DNA of 64,000 bases, from the NCBI GenBank assembly GCA_018268255.1, contig JAFDWX010000008.1, positions 91,269 to 155,268 on the forward strand, in the 5' to 3' direction. Numbering within the stretch: position 1 is the first letter of the stretch; the number at the start of each line of letters is the position of its first letter. Positions 23,299 through 34,898 of the stretch are shown one piece after another. The notes below the pieces were generated by a model. It had not been told where the DNA came from and ran no database searches. It saw nothing but the letters and a program-made list of their open reading frames with translations. The position numbers and the translations under genes were made by a program. Source of the DNA: Armatimonadota bacterium. Its GTDB lineage: Bacteria; Armatimonadota; Fimbriimonadia; Fimbriimonadales; Fimbriimonadaceae.

Positions 23299-23907
23299 GT
23301 GAATAAAGCTTTTAGCAAAGCACTGCTTGCCGTAGCAGTCATTGGAGCTGTCTCAGGCGCCCAAGCCATCACGTTTTCGAACGTGACGGTTACCGGTCCT
23401 GCGCAGTTAATCGGCGCACTTAACACGGATTACTTCATTAGTACCGGAGCCACGGATATTGACTTCAAGTTCAACAAGGCAATTGTTGGCGACAATATGC
23501 CGTTGCGATTCGGCACGATCAACATCACTTTCGAAGCGACCGACGCTCAAGCACTGGCGCTGGACAAGCTCAACCTGAGCTTCAGCAGCTTGCTCACGGG
23601 TAGCGGTCATCTGCGGTTCACCGAAGTTGTCGAAGACATGGTGAATCCTGGAATCATCGCCAGCTTCTCGAAGGACTACTATGCTGGTTCGGTTGGAGAC
23701 GCTTCAACCCTCGTGTTCTCGCGAGTTACACCCCATATCAAGGTCAAGAAGAGCATCTTCTTGGATGCATTCAACACCAACGCGGTTGACCTCGCTGGCA
23801 TCGGCATCGTCGAGCAGAAGCTTGAAACCGTTCCGGAGCCTGCAACTCTTGCAGTCATCGGTCTGGGTCTCGCTGCCGTCGCACGACGACGTAAGGAGAG
23901 CCGCTAA
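23299..23907 (+). CDS. PEP-CTERM protein, first of tandem pair
   Basis: 202 aa from GTG with a strong GGGAGG eight nt upstream. Signal peptide about residues 1-23 (GAQA cleavage). The C-terminus is TVPEPATLAVIG, a hydrophobic span, then ARRRKESR, a standard exosortase substrate. The body resembles the next gene throughout: ITFSNVTVTGP, IVGDNMPLRFGT, ITFEATDAQ, HIKVKKSIFLDA, AGIGIVEQ. The beta-rich, cysteine-free sequence suggests a secreted sandwich fold. Function unknown; probably extracellular matrix. Confidence 0.85.
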   Translation: MNKAFSKALLAVAVIGAVSGAQAITFSNVTVTGPAQLIGALNTDYFISTGATDIDFKFNKAIVGDNMPLRFGTINITFEATDAQALALDKLNLSFSSLLTGSGHLRFTEVVEDMVNPGIIASFSKDYYAGSVGDASTLVFSRVTPHIKVKKSIFLDAFNTNAVDLAGIGIVEQKLETVPEPATLAVIGLGLAAVARRRKESR

Positions 23908-23964
23908 CCATTTCGCCTGATGAATCAGGGGAATTTGATTAAAGGGATCTACCCAAGGGAGAAC

Positions 23965-24570
23965 ATGATGAAGAAATTTTCGGTACGAGGACTGGCGCTC
24001 GGGGCTCTGCTTATGGCAGTTGGTGCAGCAAACGCTATCACCTTCTCAAATATTCAGATCACCGGTCCGTCAGAACTAATTGACGGCTCATATCACGTCT
24101 ACAACACAAATTGCGACATCGATTTCACTTTCGATTCGGCATGGGTTGGCGACAATCTCCCGTTGCGAACGGGAACCATCGTCATCACTTTTGAAGCCAT
24201 CGGCGCACAGGGTGAGATGATGACTGGCGTGAACCTTTCTGGTAACGCACTTGCTCTCGGTTCGGGCATCGTTCAGGTGACCGAGATCGTGGAGGACTTC
24301 CAGAACGGCGGAACTCCGAAGGTTGACGGCGTGACCATCACCGCGGGCGACTCGGGCGCTTTCGGCAAGTTGATCACTCTCGACAAGCCGAGCAACCACC
24401 TTAAGGTGAAAAAGACGATCTTCTTGAATGCGGTTGAGACGCAGGCAATGGATCTCGCAGCGATCGGTCTGGTCGAGCAGAATTTCGTCAAGACCGTTCC
24501 TGAGCCAGCTTCAATGGGCGCTCTTGCTCTCGGCATCGCTGGTATCGTTGCGCGACGCCGCAAGAAATAA
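23965..24570 (+). CDS. PEP-CTERM protein, second of tandem pair
   Basis: 201 aa. The ATG at 23965 was chosen over an upstream one because it follows AAGGGAG and begins the signal peptide MMKKFSVRGLALGALL, cleaved near NANA. It shares with its neighbour ITFSNIQITGP, WVGDNLPLRTGT, VITFEAIGAQ, HLKVKKTIFLNA and AAIGLVEQ, so the two are a tandem duplication. The C-terminal sorting signal is TVPEPASMGAL, hydrophobic span, ARRRKK. Terminator follows at 24615. Function unknown. Confidence 0.85.
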   Translation: MMKKFSVRGLALGALLMAVGAANAITFSNIQITGPSELIDGSYHVYNTNCDIDFTFDSAWVGDNLPLRTGTIVITFEAIGAQGEMMTGVNLSGNALALGSGIVQVTEIVEDFQNGGTPKVDGVTITAGDSGAFGKLITLDKPSNHLKVKKTIFLNAVETQAMDLAAIGLVEQNFVKTVPEPASMGALALGIAGIVARRRKK

Positions 24571-28993: not shown

Positions 28994-30130
28994 ATGAAAA
29001 CTCTCTGCACATTGGCTTTAAGTTCTGTGATCGCTGCGACTGCATATTGCCAGGAAACGGTGGTGCACTCCGACAACTTCGATGGATTCGCCAGCGCGAC
29101 CCTCACCAACCAGAGTGGTTGGAGCACAGATCTACCTACTGGGGGAACCTTCACCGTCAGTTCAACGGCTGCTCTTGGCACGGGAAAGGGCGTGCTCTAC
29201 AACACTGCGCTTGTTTCGGCCGGCACAGGATATGCGTGGAAAGACATCTCCCAGATTCTTAGTAGCCAGACTTACGTCACTTCGTTCTGGATGAAGTTCA
29301 ACCCGTTGCAGACCAATACTTCGCGTGCGGGGCTCCAAAGCTATGTCGTGGATGAGACCTCTACGTTAACCATTGACCAGGAAGCCTATCTCTATGCTGA
29401 CGGACGGTTGGAAATGTGGGTTCAAACGGGCGTTGCAGGCGGCTACGCGTTTGTCACCGACACCAATGCTCCGGCAGGGGTATGGCATCGGGTGGAGATG
29501 GTTCTGGACTACTCCAAAAAGAAATCGACCTGGAGTGTGAACGGGGTCGTCATCGGCCAGCAGAGCGACATCGGTACGGGGCAGGTGACACTTTCGGATA
29601 TGGATCTTGCCGTGAGTAGTTTCGGCGACAATGTTGTCAACTTCGACGACTACAAGGTGACGAGATACGACACCGGACAGCAATGGGTGACCGGCCGAGT
29701 GCTTCCATCAGAGTATATGGGTACGCCTTTTGCCAATGCTACGATGACGTTTGTGCCTGTCGCAGGAGGGAACCCGGTGGTCCAAACGGTTGCATTGGAT
29801 AGCGACGGATACTTCAAAACCCAGGCACCAACGCAAGGTACGTTCGACGTATTCGCCAAGATCGATGGATATCTGTCCAAGAAACTCGGACAGGTCACAG
29901 GAGATGCATACTCGCGGCTGTCGGTGGCGAGCCTCTTGGGAGGAGACATCGACAACGATGATATGGTCACCGTGTTCGATTACGTGATTCTCTCCGATGC
30001 CTTTGACACATCCGTTGGCGATGCAGGCTATCTTCCAGCAGCTGATTTGGACGGCGACGGATCCGTCACGGTGTTCGATTATCTCATTCTCTCCAATAAC
30101 TTCGACTTGTTCGGAGACCTGCAGAGCTAA
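28994..30130 (+). CDS. Secreted LamG-like protein with dockerin-like EF-hand tail
   Basis: 378 aa. Signal peptide about 1-19 (AYCQ). Residues 24-228 form a beta-sandwich module with VVHSDNFDGF, AWKDISQ and VNFDDYKV, also found in two PEP-CTERM proteins of this window. Next comes a carboxypeptidase-regulatory-like segment (GYFKTQAPTQGTFDVFAKIDGY). The C-terminus has two Ca-binding repeats, GDIDNDDMVTVFDY and ADLDGDGSVTVFDY, in dockerin type I order. It is probably an extracellular or surface-complex protein. GGAGG is 10 nt before the ATG. No cohesin is in the window. Confidence 0.8.
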   Translation: MKTLCTLALSSVIAATAYCQETVVHSDNFDGFASATLTNQSGWSTDLPTGGTFTVSSTAALGTGKGVLYNTALVSAGTGYAWKDISQILSSQTYVTSFWMKFNPLQTNTSRAGLQSYVVDETSTLTIDQEAYLYADGRLEMWVQTGVAGGYAFVTDTNAPAGVWHRVEMVLDYSKKKSTWSVNGVVIGQQSDIGTGQVTLSDMDLAVSSFGDNVVNFDDYKVTRYDTGQQWVTGRVLPSEYMGTPFANATMTFVPVAGGNPVVQTVALDSDGYFKTQAPTQGTFDVFAKIDGYLSKKLGQVTGDAYSRLSVASLLGGDIDNDDMVTVFDYVILSDAFDTSVGDAGYLPAADLDGDGSVTVFDYLILSNNFDLFGDLQS

Positions 30131-30205
30131 GCTTCCGCACTCAAAACCGACGAAATCCGCGCGATTTCTCGCGTGGCTTTCGTCGTAGGTGCTGCCTTGG
30201 CTCGA

Positions 30206-30715
30206 TCAGGATTTTGGAAACCCAGTGGAGTGCTGGATCAGGTAGGCCTGCCCATGATGATATGCCGGGTGGAACGCGAACCTGGCTAACGCTCCGGCTC
30301 CTGTGATAACTGGGCCAAGGGCGCTCTTAATCTCCCGATTCAAAACCTCCTCGGTCGGCGACAGGATGATCGACATCACCATTTCTCTGCCCTTAGCAAG
30401 CGCGGTTCTCACCAAATCCACGGTGATCTCCGCTTCTGAAAATGGGAATGGATGATCGTTAACGACCCCTTCGGTTGCGGCTGAGGCTAGTTGTTGTTCC
30501 TCCGCACCAAGCTCTCGACCCAGCAACTGGCTGACAAACCAGATTTCCACGCCAGACAGATGGAGCGCCATCTCTCCAACTGTGAGCGTATCGGGGCCAA
30601 GCCGGTAATTCAACTGAGGAGTCGAAAATTCGGCCACGCAGTCGTCGAAACGCTTTCGGGCAAGCTCGTAGGTTTGGGAGAAGTCGCTCATGGTGCCGTG
30701 GATTTTACTTGACAT
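30206..30715 (-). CDS. DinB-family putative metal-dependent protein
   Basis: 169 aa from ATG 30715; an ATG at 30760 would add 15 residues. It is a four-helix bundle by pattern, with the DinB metal triad H52 (ALHLSG), H149 (FAFHPAY) and H153 (AYHHGQ). Members include YfiT-like and bacillithiol S-transferases as well as DNA-damage-induced proteins of unknown activity. The substrate cannot be assigned. It faces away from the PEP-CTERM gene at 30836. Confidence 0.8.
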   Translation of the reverse strand: MSSKIHGTMSDFSQTYELARKRFDDCVAEFSTPQLNYRLGPDTLTVGEMALHLSGVEIWFVSQLLGRELGAEEQQLASAATEGVVNDHPFPFSEAEITVDLVRTALAKGREMVMSIILSPTEEVLNREIKSALGPVITGAGALARFAFHPAYHHGQAYLIQHSTGFPKS

Positions 30716-30835
30716 TAAAATTTCTTGGTTCTTTTGAGACAATATCCTTGGTCTCGTCACATATCGTCTGCTTGCAGACAGATGTACATTGTTTATTTTT
30801 CTCTTATAGAGATTGAGTGAAAGGAAAGAAACTAC

Positions 30836-31687
30836 ATGAAGACAATTACAGCTCTTGCATTTTTGGTGGCTGCGGCTAGTTCACAAGCCGTGATTTTGTA
30901 CAGTACCGGCTTCGAATCGCCGTGGGCTGCGGGCACGAACGGATCCTCGGTCATCTCGGCCGCAAATACAGCGCAAGGCTGGGCTTCTGGTTCAACTGGC
31001 GCCACCGTAGTAGCAAACGGCCAGACCAACGCTGGTGGAGTGACCGCCTACGCCGGAACCCAGATGATGCGAATGACCACTTCCACAGCAGCTGGCAATG
31101 CGAACTGGGCCTGGAAGGACCTCAGCGGCGGTTGGGCTTCCCGGCCGAGTGGCGACAATACGCTCCACGCCCAGACGAAGGCGTTTATCCCAACAGGGAA
31201 CAACAGAACCACGACGTACGGCATTCAGGCGTACACAACTGCGGTCGACGTCGTGGGAGAGATTCTTTTTGTTCCCAATTACGATGCCAGCAACTCGTTT
31301 ATTTACCTGGCTAGCGGTACCTGGAACGACACCACAACTTTCAACTATATTGGGTACACGATTCCGAAGGCTACACTCCGCGGAGCTTGGTTCGGTCTTG
31401 ACCTTTACACCAATATGGCTACGAGCACAGCTTCAGGCTTCTTGACGCTTGGCTCAACGACGTACTATCTTGGCAGTGTTGCACTCGATCCTACCCAGAC
31501 CAATGTTGGGATCGGCGACCTTGATTTCTTTGCTGGCAACCCAAGCAGCGGAAGTCAGACCGGGACGACGGCTGCGGCGAACAGCGTGTATTTCGACAAC
31601 TATGGTGTCGAGACGGTGCCTGAGCCAGCCACCATGGCCGCCCTCGGCTTGGGATTGGCTGCTGTTATCCGACGCCGAAAGAAGTAA
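30836..31687 (+). CDS. PEP-CTERM protein with LamG-like module
   Basis: 283 aa, AAAGGAAAG before the ATG. Signal peptide 1-18 (SSQA). The body has VILYSTGFESP, WAWKDLSGGW and VYFDNYGVETVPEP, paralleling the protein at 32570 and the dockerin-like protein at 28994. The sorting signal is VPEPATMAAL, hydrophobic span, RRRKK. Expected export by Sec and processing by exosortase. A hairpin lies just after the stop. No enzyme motif seen. Confidence 0.87.
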   Translation: MKTITALAFLVAAASSQAVILYSTGFESPWAAGTNGSSVISAANTAQGWASGSTGATVVANGQTNAGGVTAYAGTQMMRMTTSTAAGNANWAWKDLSGGWASRPSGDNTLHAQTKAFIPTGNNRTTTYGIQAYTTAVDVVGEILFVPNYDASNSFIYLASGTWNDTTTFNYIGYTIPKATLRGAWFGLDLYTNMATSTASGFLTLGSTTYYLGSVALDPTQTNVGIGDLDFFAGNPSSGSQTGTTAAANSVYFDNYGVETVPEPATMAALGLGLAAVIRRRKK

Positions 31688-31697
31688 ATGAGTAAAG

Positions 31698-31725
31698 GGG
31701 AGCACCTTTCGCCTGGTGCTCCCTT
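31698..31725 (+). terminator. Hairpin after PEP-CTERM gene 30836
   Basis: GGGAGCACC (31698-31706) pairs perfectly with GGTGCTCCC (31715-31723), 8-nt loop. Only TTG follows, so termination may be partial. It starts 10 nt after the stop codon. Confidence 0.6.
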
Positions 31726-31876
31726 GCGTGTGTAACAAAGCACAGCAAGAAATCGCAGGTGAAATCAAGACCCTTTCGAGTACGATAAAGATACGCGTGT
31801 AAGAAAAACATAAGAAGAAACGGAAAGCGCAAGTTAACGCGACGCACTATTCCGTCCTCCCTTTCAACAAACTAGT

Positions 31877-31913
31877 TTGGGCCAGAAACCTTTCGGAATC
31901 TGGCCCAATTTTT
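31877..31913 (+). terminator. Second, stronger terminator before the atpC 3' end
   Basis: TTGGGCCAGA (31877-31886) pairs perfectly with TCTGGCCCAA (31899-31908), 12-nt loop, followed by TTTTT. It is oriented for plus-strand transcription, 190 nt after the PEP-CTERM stop, and protects the minus-strand atpC end from read-through. On the minus strand no T-run follows. Confidence 0.8.
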
Positions 31914-31929
31914 GTCTCTAAGGTGGAAA

Positions 31930-32337
31930 TTACCGAGTGGTTCGGGCTGTTCGAATTCGGACGAGCGCTTCTTCCAACTCGTAGGTCGCTTCTTCCGGGT
32001 TCACAGTGCTTTCTTCACCGCGAAGAGCCTTCCGAGCCTGTTCCAGAGCCATTTCTTCCTCACGGACATCGATTTCGTGAGCAAGCTTGGCGTCATCCGC
32101 AAGGACAATCGCTCCGGTACCGCTTACCTCAAGAAATCCTCCGCTGATTGCGATGTGGTGCTTGTTGTCTCGCTCGTCGCGATAGGCCAAAACTCCTGGG
32201 CGGAGTGCCACAATCATCGGCTCGTGGTGGCTCCACACGCCCATGTAGCCATCGTGCGCTGGAACTTCCAGGCCGATAGCATCTACTTCGGCGACGGTTC
32301 GGTCTGGTGCCACGACCGACAGATTGAACGTTGTCAT
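31930..32337 (-). CDS. atpC: ATP synthase epsilon subunit
   Basis: 135 aa from ATG 32337; a longer frame (to 32415) has no family support. It opens FNLSVVAPDRTVAEVDAIGLEVPAHDGYMGVW, read here in parts: VVAPDRTV and VPAHDGYMG match the epsilon beta-sandwich, and EEMALEQARKALRG the C-terminal helices. It forms part of the F1 central stalk and can inhibit hydrolysis. GGGGA touches the ATG directly and TACAAA lies 7 nt upstream, so a leaderless start is possible. It is separated from atpD by an opposite-strand PEP-CTERM gene. Confidence 0.9.
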   Translation of the reverse strand: MTTFNLSVVAPDRTVAEVDAIGLEVPAHDGYMGVWSHHEPMIVALRPGVLAYRDERDNKHHIAISGGFLEVSGTGAIVLADDAKLAHEIDVREEEMALEQARKALRGEESTVNPEEATYELEEALVRIRTARTTR

Positions 32338-32569
32338 TCCCCTATTTGTACCCCGAAAGGCACCCCGTAGGCGATATTGACGATGGCCACCAGCGATCTT
32401 TGATGATTGTATCAAGCACGAATGAGACAGAGGTTTGCGAAAATCTTGTCATTTATTGATTTTATTGGTAAAGTTACCGGGGCAAGCTCTATGTTTTTCG
32501 TTAAGCCTGGTGTATGATAACTGAATCTGAGTCACTAGGCTCTGATGTTTCTTTGAAAGGGAAGAAAAA

Positions 32570-33271
32570 ATGAATATCAAAACTATCGCGGTTCTTGCCG
32601 CTGGGCTTGCTGCCATGTCAGCAAACGCCGTTGTTCTGGTCAATGAGGGATTCGAGTCACCAACGTGGACGCTTGGCCAAGATATTGCTGGCCTGAACGG
32701 CTTCGACGCAGCTTCGGACACGGGTTACACTATCGACAACACCCACGCTAAGTCGGGTACGCAGTCGGCTATGTTCGACACTGCACCAGCTGCTGGTAGC
32801 AATTGGGCTTGGAAGAACACTCTTGTCACGAGTGGAATCGTGTCAGCGAAGGCGAGCGTTTACATCGAGTCGATCTCCGGCGCAACCATCTTCAGCTACT
32901 TCGGTTTGGATCTTTACAGCTCGAGCGTTTCTCGACTTGCACTCTTGCAGGTCAAGGCAGACGGAACAGTTTGGTTCGGCAACGCGACCCTGACCCAAGT
33001 CGGTACCGCTGGATTGAACCAATGGAACGACCTTGAAGTGCGGGCAAACCTCACCACGAAGGTCGCCACTGCATACGTCAACGGATCTGCAGTTGGCAGC
33101 GGAGTTTCGTTCACCGCAACGAACTTCAACGATGCCGACATGGTATCGCGAGCAACTGGCTTCGAGCGAGGCTGGTACGACGACTACAAGATTGAGACCG
33201 TTCCTGAGCCAATGACCATTTCCGCAATGGCTCTTGGTTTGGCTGCGATCGCACGAAAGCGACGCAAGTAA
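32570..33271 (+). CDS. PEP-CTERM protein inserted between atpD and atpC
   Basis: 233 aa, GAAAGGGAAG before the ATG. Signal peptide 1-19 (SANA). The body has VVLVNEGFESP, NWAWKNTLV, FYSYF-like strands and GWYDDYKIETVPEP, matching the LamG-like module of the genes at 28994 and 30836. Sorting signal: VPEPMTISAM, hydrophobic span, ARKRRK. It is on the plus strand inside the atpD-atpC pair, which is on the minus strand. TATGAT at 32514-32519 could be its -10. It ends before the bidirectional terminator at 33318. Confidence 0.86.
   Translation: MNIKTIAVLAAGLAAMSANAVVLVNEGFESPTWTLGQDIAGLNGFDAASDTGYTIDNTHAKSGTQSAMFDTAPAAGSNWAWKNTLVTSGIVSAKASVYIESISGATIFSYFGLDLYSSSVSRLALLQVKADGTVWFGNATLTQVGTAGLNQWNDLEVRANLTTKVATAYVNGSAVGSGVSFTATNFNDADMVSRATGFERGWYDDYKIETVPEPMTISAMALGLAAIARKRRK

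Positions 33272-33374: not shown

Positions 33375-34898
<1,524 letters not shown>

Follow-up and report, generated by a model that had tools for sequence, protein, structure and literature searches.

A type II X-dockerin tail in the place of PEP-CTERM on related exported proteins of an Armatimonadota bacterium in which no cohesin is found

Three genes of one body family carry two kinds of tail

Three genes in a 64,000-nucleotide stretch of an Armatimonadota genome (GCA_018268255.1, contig JAFDWX010000008.1, positions 91,269 to 155,268; the window) raise the question of why one type of protein body should end in two different tails, and of what the less familiar of the two tails does. The preliminary description of this DNA reported three open reading frames with three motifs in common, two of them ending in PEP-CTERM and the third in a regulatory-like segment followed by two EF-hands. 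All three frames were recovered at the coordinates below, each with all three motifs in identical order, and the tail assignments are supported by Pfam and NCBIfam profiles.

28994..30130, + strand: P0001, exported protein of 378 aa with an X-dockerin tail (ORF; signal-like start by eye)
29063..29665, + strand: P0001 body, ~aa 24-224, of the P0002/P0003 body family, with weak LamG likeness (profiles; Laminin_G_3 E 1e-5, below cut-off)
29678..29935, + strand: P0001 X-module, ~aa 229-314, Ig-like and CarboxypepD_reg-like (domain profile, model, structure and sequence comparison)
29936..30127, + strand: P0001 dockerin, ~aa 315-378, at the absolute C-terminus (domain profile, model, structure and sequence comparison)
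29945..29980, + strand: first calcium loop of P0001, D318-D329, with VF at recognition positions 10-11 (tail comparison; sequence)
30044..30079, + strand: second calcium loop of P0001, D351-D362, again with VF at positions 10-11 (tail comparison; sequence)
30836..31687, + strand: P0002, 283 aa, of the body family of P0001 and P0003, with a PEP-CTERM tail (ORF, profiles)
31613..31684, + strand: P0002 PEP-CTERM tail (32.4 bits against a Pfam cut-off of 20.7)
32570..33271, + strand: P0003, 233 aa, of the body family of P0001 and P0002, with a PEP-CTERM tail (ORF, profiles)
33197..33268, + strand: P0003 PEP-CTERM tail (above the TIGR02595 cut-off, slightly below that of Pfam)

The C-termini of P0002 and P0003 consist of the PEP motif, a hydrophobic helix and a basic end, with P0003 recognised by TIGR02595 only (NCBIfam, 21.7 against a cut-off of 16; Pfam, 19.7 against 20.7). 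The tail of P0001 was matched by Dockerin_1 above its cut-off. The trio is not contiguous, which corrects the earlier picture: DinB-like and ATP synthase epsilon genes (named by eye) lie between its members on the opposite strand, so that the three genes form a loose cluster and no operon. By eye, the P0003 gene (32570-33271, +) sits between the genes for ATP synthase beta (33375-34862, -) and epsilon (31930-32415, -), which are usually adjacent within one operon. Two more PEP-CTERM genes with related bodies were observed in tandem at 23700-24570, beside a tyrosyl-tRNA synthetase-like gene, and the body family of this pair has three further members in tandem on another contig.

The three bodies are related

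Bodies were compared after removal of the signal peptide and tail, using 100 shuffles as control. P0001 and P0003 aligned at 24% over 176 aa (E 3e-4) and P0002 and P0003 matched at E 4e-5, with 0 of 100 shuffles equal in each case. No significant similarity was found in the direct pairwise comparison of P0001 and P0002, for which 17 of 100 shuffles were equally good. The whole-protein match between P0002 and P0003 (4e-18) was due in part to the signal peptide and PEP tail. Linking relatives were obtained by searching 85 family genomes. A profile built from these relatives only, with the window proteins left out, matched P0001 at 3e-20, P0002 at 4e-14 and P0003 at 2e-39, compared to a best E of 0.36 for shuffled copies, and a profile built from PEP-tailed relatives only matched the dockerin-tailed P0001 at 3e-13. 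Among the single relatives, a dockerin-tailed one from the same genus (G071:C6) gave E values of 3e-17 with P0003 and 3e-26 with the P0001 body, and a PEP-tailed one gave 6e-37 and 5e-10, respectively. The body that had been proposed as common to the three genes is therefore upheld by the leave-out profiles, and the sequence relationship suggests that the three bodies have a common fold.

Direct modelling gave low-confidence structures, with a pLDDT of 30 for the single-sequence model of P0003 and mostly <50 for the P0001 body. The Laminin_G_3 score of P0001 was 26.1 bits against a cut-off of 27.6, P0002 and P0003 had no Laminin_G_3 match, and none of the NCBIfam choice-of-anchor models matched the window bodies. 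A fourth member of the body family in the genome (C5:360734, E 1e-7) has a dockerin tail as well. The body tree of the family contains at least three tail changes, although the AU test falls short of firmly rejecting one common origin for the dockerin-tailed rows (p-AU 0.057). One relative of the window bodies (L185, genome G005) has a C-terminus with neither a PEP nor a dockerin motif, and may have a third kind of tail or come from a broken gene.

The P0001 tail resembles a complete type II X-dockerin

Type II X-dockerins are cellulosome modules that attach the scaffold to cohesins on the cell surface, and in solved X-dockerins the X-module packs against the dockerin and stabilises it (PMC5141474). 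The P0001 model made with an alignment of tails had a pLDDT of 88-98 over residues 231-378. Comparison of this region to solved structures gave Z scores of 14.4-15.6 to eight type II X-dockerin entries, compared to 7.1 for the next unrelated fold. The tail-family profile matched the same entries with E values down to 3e-11, covering both the X-module and the dockerin. In both the model and the sequence, the Ig-like X-module of P0001 immediately precedes the dockerin. In both EF-hand-like loops, the acidic positions 1, 3, 5 and 12 were D or N in 97-100% of 76 tails. Collectively, model and sequence identify the P0001 tail as a complete type II X-dockerin. A structure search of a viral structure library returned weak generic matches only. 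The metagenome-assembled genomes Chthonomonas sp. UBA2391 and UBA2362 were named sources of relatives of the tail, in keeping with the assignment of the organism to the Armatimonadota.

The two tails are exchanged on the same bodies across the genome

In the genome (3.19 Mb in 9 contigs, 98.5% complete), a profile search gave 60 PEP-CTERM and 76 dockerin matches, and tails were examined in stretches around every match. The dockerin forms the C-terminal end of ~77 exported proteins (counted at ≥150 aa), and 76 of 77 such tails stop 13-18 residues past the last calcium aspartate. When the two tail sets of the genome were compared, no protein was found to have both. A same-strand dockerin gene lies within 2.5 kb of 12 of the 60 PEP genes, compared to 3.6 expected and a maximum of 10 in simulation (n=1000). 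Among the 25 of 99 families listed, the commonest dockerin-tailed bodies were propellers, cadherin/Ig-like proteins, subtilases, LamG and PQQ-dehydrogenase-like proteins.

We searched for swaps by comparing all bodies, stripped of signal and tail, against all others. The top PEP-dockerin pair (C3:313055 and C3:330306) was 53% identical over 273 aa, with the likeness stopping at the tail boundary. The adjoining genes C5:286199 and 287030, one with a dockerin and one with a PEP tail, were 38% identical over 226 aa, and both matched choice_anch_M (96 and 107 bits, cut-off 55). A third pair was 29% identical (E 1e-15). The pair D_C8_15191 and P_C3_30866 was set aside, as its likeness consisted of beta-propeller repeats alone. 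Since clearer swap pairs exist elsewhere in the genome, the swap inferred in the preliminary description is better backed outside the window than within it.

One exosortase was found and no cohesin

The preliminary description had assigned the two tails to exosortase sorting and calcium-dependent assembly, and had named exosortase and cohesin genes as those to look for in the genome. The exosortase half of this proposal stood, as did the swap, given the 53% identical bodies and the adjoining choice_anch_M genes. The genome has one exosortase gene (PF09721, E 5e-49), followed by an EpsI-like DUF3485 gene. Its translation contains PCSGF, NGLR and FHDYSG, corresponding to the Cys, Arg and His residues whose roles are described in PMC1569441. 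Within the family, 76 of 85 genomes have an exosortase. Genome G070, of the same genus, has PEP-tailed proteins and no exosortase match (L172), perhaps due to an assembly gap. A dockerin-tailed gene lies ~2 kb from the exosortase gene (L168, C8:277895, and L039, C8:275541), with a spermidine-synthase-like gene between them.

A cohesin counterpart was not found. There was no match to cohesin PF00963 at E ≤1 in the genome, and none by Pfam in any of the 85 family genomes, including 14 that are dockerin-rich. Those 14 genomes (five genera) have at least 12 dockerins each, and the remainder of the 85 have 0-5. Cohesins were found in 36 of 291 genomes across the phylum, in other families, so the search works. 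A profile built from these phylum cohesins found nothing in the host genus, and the best cohesin hit among ORFs in 645 kb (E 0.11) was a frame antisense to an aminopeptidase-like gene. A cellulosome was rejected on this ground, and there is no support for assembly on a cohesin scaffold of a known type, while calcium-dependent assembly as such stays plausible. In 12 genomes from other parts of the phylum that do have cohesins, few strong dockerin matches were present, an observation of little weight for or against. In five genomes of one other phylum genus (L219, L221, L225, L227, L229), very short single-cohesin frames of 157-190 aa were seen, and two of the five have a dockerin match within ~500 bases on the same strand.

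These searches bear on the reading in which a cohesin scaffold exists and was missed, either because it is too diverged for sequence profiles or because its gene falls in the 1.5% of the genome absent from the assembly. The tail would then belong to an ordinary non-cellulosomal complex like the planctosome proposed, with cohesins and dockerins, in PMC6461901. Every feature of a cohesin-binding X-dockerin is retained by the tail, and other families of the phylum do have cohesins. Set against this is the count of 0 in 85 family genomes, 14 of them dockerin-rich, for which a gap in one assembly is insufficient as a cause. We therefore consider a missed cohesin quite unlikely.

The dockerin carries a genus-specific code around known recognition positions

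Cohesin specificity has been assigned to dockerin positions 10 and 11, and Phe27, renumbered here as position 20, has been described as essential (PMC8063739). Tails from eight genomes were compared. The X-module half was 0.24 identical within a genome and 0.23 between genomes, while the dockerin half was 0.61 identical within and 0.42 between. The largest gaps between the two measures were at EF-hand positions 9, 11, 13, 14, 17 and 21 in both repeats, and at position 10 in the second. Within a genome the residues at these positions are nearly fixed and agree between the two repeats, and they differ from genus to genus. The host genus has the code TIFDYL..S...D, and those of other genera are NIADFL..R...G, IGDYA..S...G, DLTDYT......N and GPGDFS......G. 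Position 20 is F or Y in the tails studied here.

Recent duplication or gene conversion was considered as the source of the uniform code and rejected. Among the 76 tails of the genome, codons at conserved residues were near random (0.45 identical against 0.41 expected), both codon families were in use at serine 17, and the X-module is equally diverged within and between genomes. With synonymous codons saturated, the sameness reflects selection on the protein rather than recent copying. The code on the EF-hand face looks lineage-specific and looks to be read by one common partner per genome. In Acetivibrio, X-dockerins bind in two orientations via near-identical repeats (PMC5141474). The plainest reading of the tail sequences is that one shared partner per genome is bound with two-fold symmetry by tails that co-evolve.

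The code also bears on whether the tail has a partner at all. It might instead be a calcium-dependent cap for folding or stability that was spread by duplication. The failure to find a receptor fits such a cap, as does the stabilising packing of the X-module in solved X-dockerins. A cap would not predict a genus-specific code, the same in both repeats, at cohesin-facing positions while other parts of the tail drift, and we regard this explanation as highly improbable.

A proposed non-covalent alternative to exosortase anchoring

We think it reasonably probable that proteins with the X-dockerin tail are anchored non-covalently and in dependence on calcium, as an alternative to the exosortase route, giving this bacterium two interchangeable routes of which one leads to a common surface receptor. 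The dockerin-tailed proteins would be exported by Sec, whereas PEP-CTERM tails would be processed by the single exosortase. Once folded with calcium, the X-dockerin would bind the receptor non-covalently, as the X-dockerin of scaffoldins binds type II cohesin, and duplication and recombination would place one body before either tail. Surface location, calcium binding and the single receptor are what we infer for these tails, and the putative receptor would be unlike cohesins in its sequence. A dockerin clip on ~77 proteins, together with the failure to find a cohesin, suggests that a second surface-attachment system besides the exosortase probably exists.

The main rival is that the tail acts as a signal for secretion or sorting: an envelope machine would read the EF-hand code for outer-membrane crossing, and the tail would perhaps be removed afterwards. 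It is modelled on the type IX system, which reads its C-terminal domains. The strict C-terminal place of the tail, its presence as one copy per protein on a wide variety of exported bodies and the code common to the whole genome would all suit such a signal, as would the lack of a detected cohesin in genome, family or genus and the position of the tail where choice-of-anchor families have their anchor. The fold of the tail, however, matches a known module for surface binding and no known secretion signal, and the code sits at positions of cohesin-binding specificity, making a secretion signal unlikely in our view.

If the tail is indeed bound by a common receptor, one would expect to find that receptor in the 14 dockerin-rich genomes, to miss it in most of the 71 poor ones, and to see its binding face vary along with the code. 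Such a receptor, if new, would offer surface display another orthogonal protein clip. In a broader and more tentative form of the proposal, which we regard as possible rather than probable, the X-dockerin may be a general tag for sorting or anchoring that several Armatimonadota genera use alongside, and interchangeably with, exosortase sorting, with a non-cohesin receptor and a genus-diverged code.

Comparison with known systems

A dockerin that serves as an anchor alternating with PEP-CTERM/exosortase, has a code specific to the genus and lacks a cohesin partner was not found in the literature library that we searched, though parts may stand in Peer et al. 2009 on non-cellulosomal dockerins. 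No paper in that library mentions dockerin together with PEP-CTERM, and the only one to mention it together with exosortase draws no connection between the two. The role of dockerins outside cellulosomes is an open question (PMC5244752), and it becomes testable with an X-dockerin that takes the place of an anchor on dozens of exported proteins of unrelated kinds, alternates with a known sorting tag and has a genus-specific code with no cohesin detected. As in this bacterium, dockerins occur in ANME archaea (PMC5244752) and in the proposed planctosome of Planctomycetes (PMC6461901) on proteins unrelated to cellulose breakdown. In contrast to the host family, with none found in 85 genomes, ANME and planctosome genomes encode cohesins.

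The closest known modules are the type II X-dockerins of A. cellulolyticus ScaA and C. thermocellum CipA/ScaA and CipB (PDB 4wi0, 4u3s, 2b59, 5m0y, 5k39), which share the two-domain build and the C-terminal place of the P0001 tail. The P0001 tail is homologous to them in fold and sequence along its entire length. Scaffoldins have a single X-dockerin copy in genomes that encode cohesins, whereas 77 copies with another code are found here on unrelated proteins, with no cohesin found. The PEP-CTERM/exosortase (EpsH) system is represented by the tag on two of the three window genes, 60 matches in the genome and one exosortase; the dockerin tail differs from PEP-CTERM in having no PEP motif, membrane helix or basic end.

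One body with several anchors is an already known pattern, represented in NCBIfam by the choice-of-anchor families, in which one body has varying C-terminal anchors. The known anchors behind their name are processed tags, for example PEP-CTERM and LPXTG. The window trio follows this pattern without a match to any named model. In this genome choice_anch_M occurs with both tails, and the X-dockerin would serve as one of the anchors.
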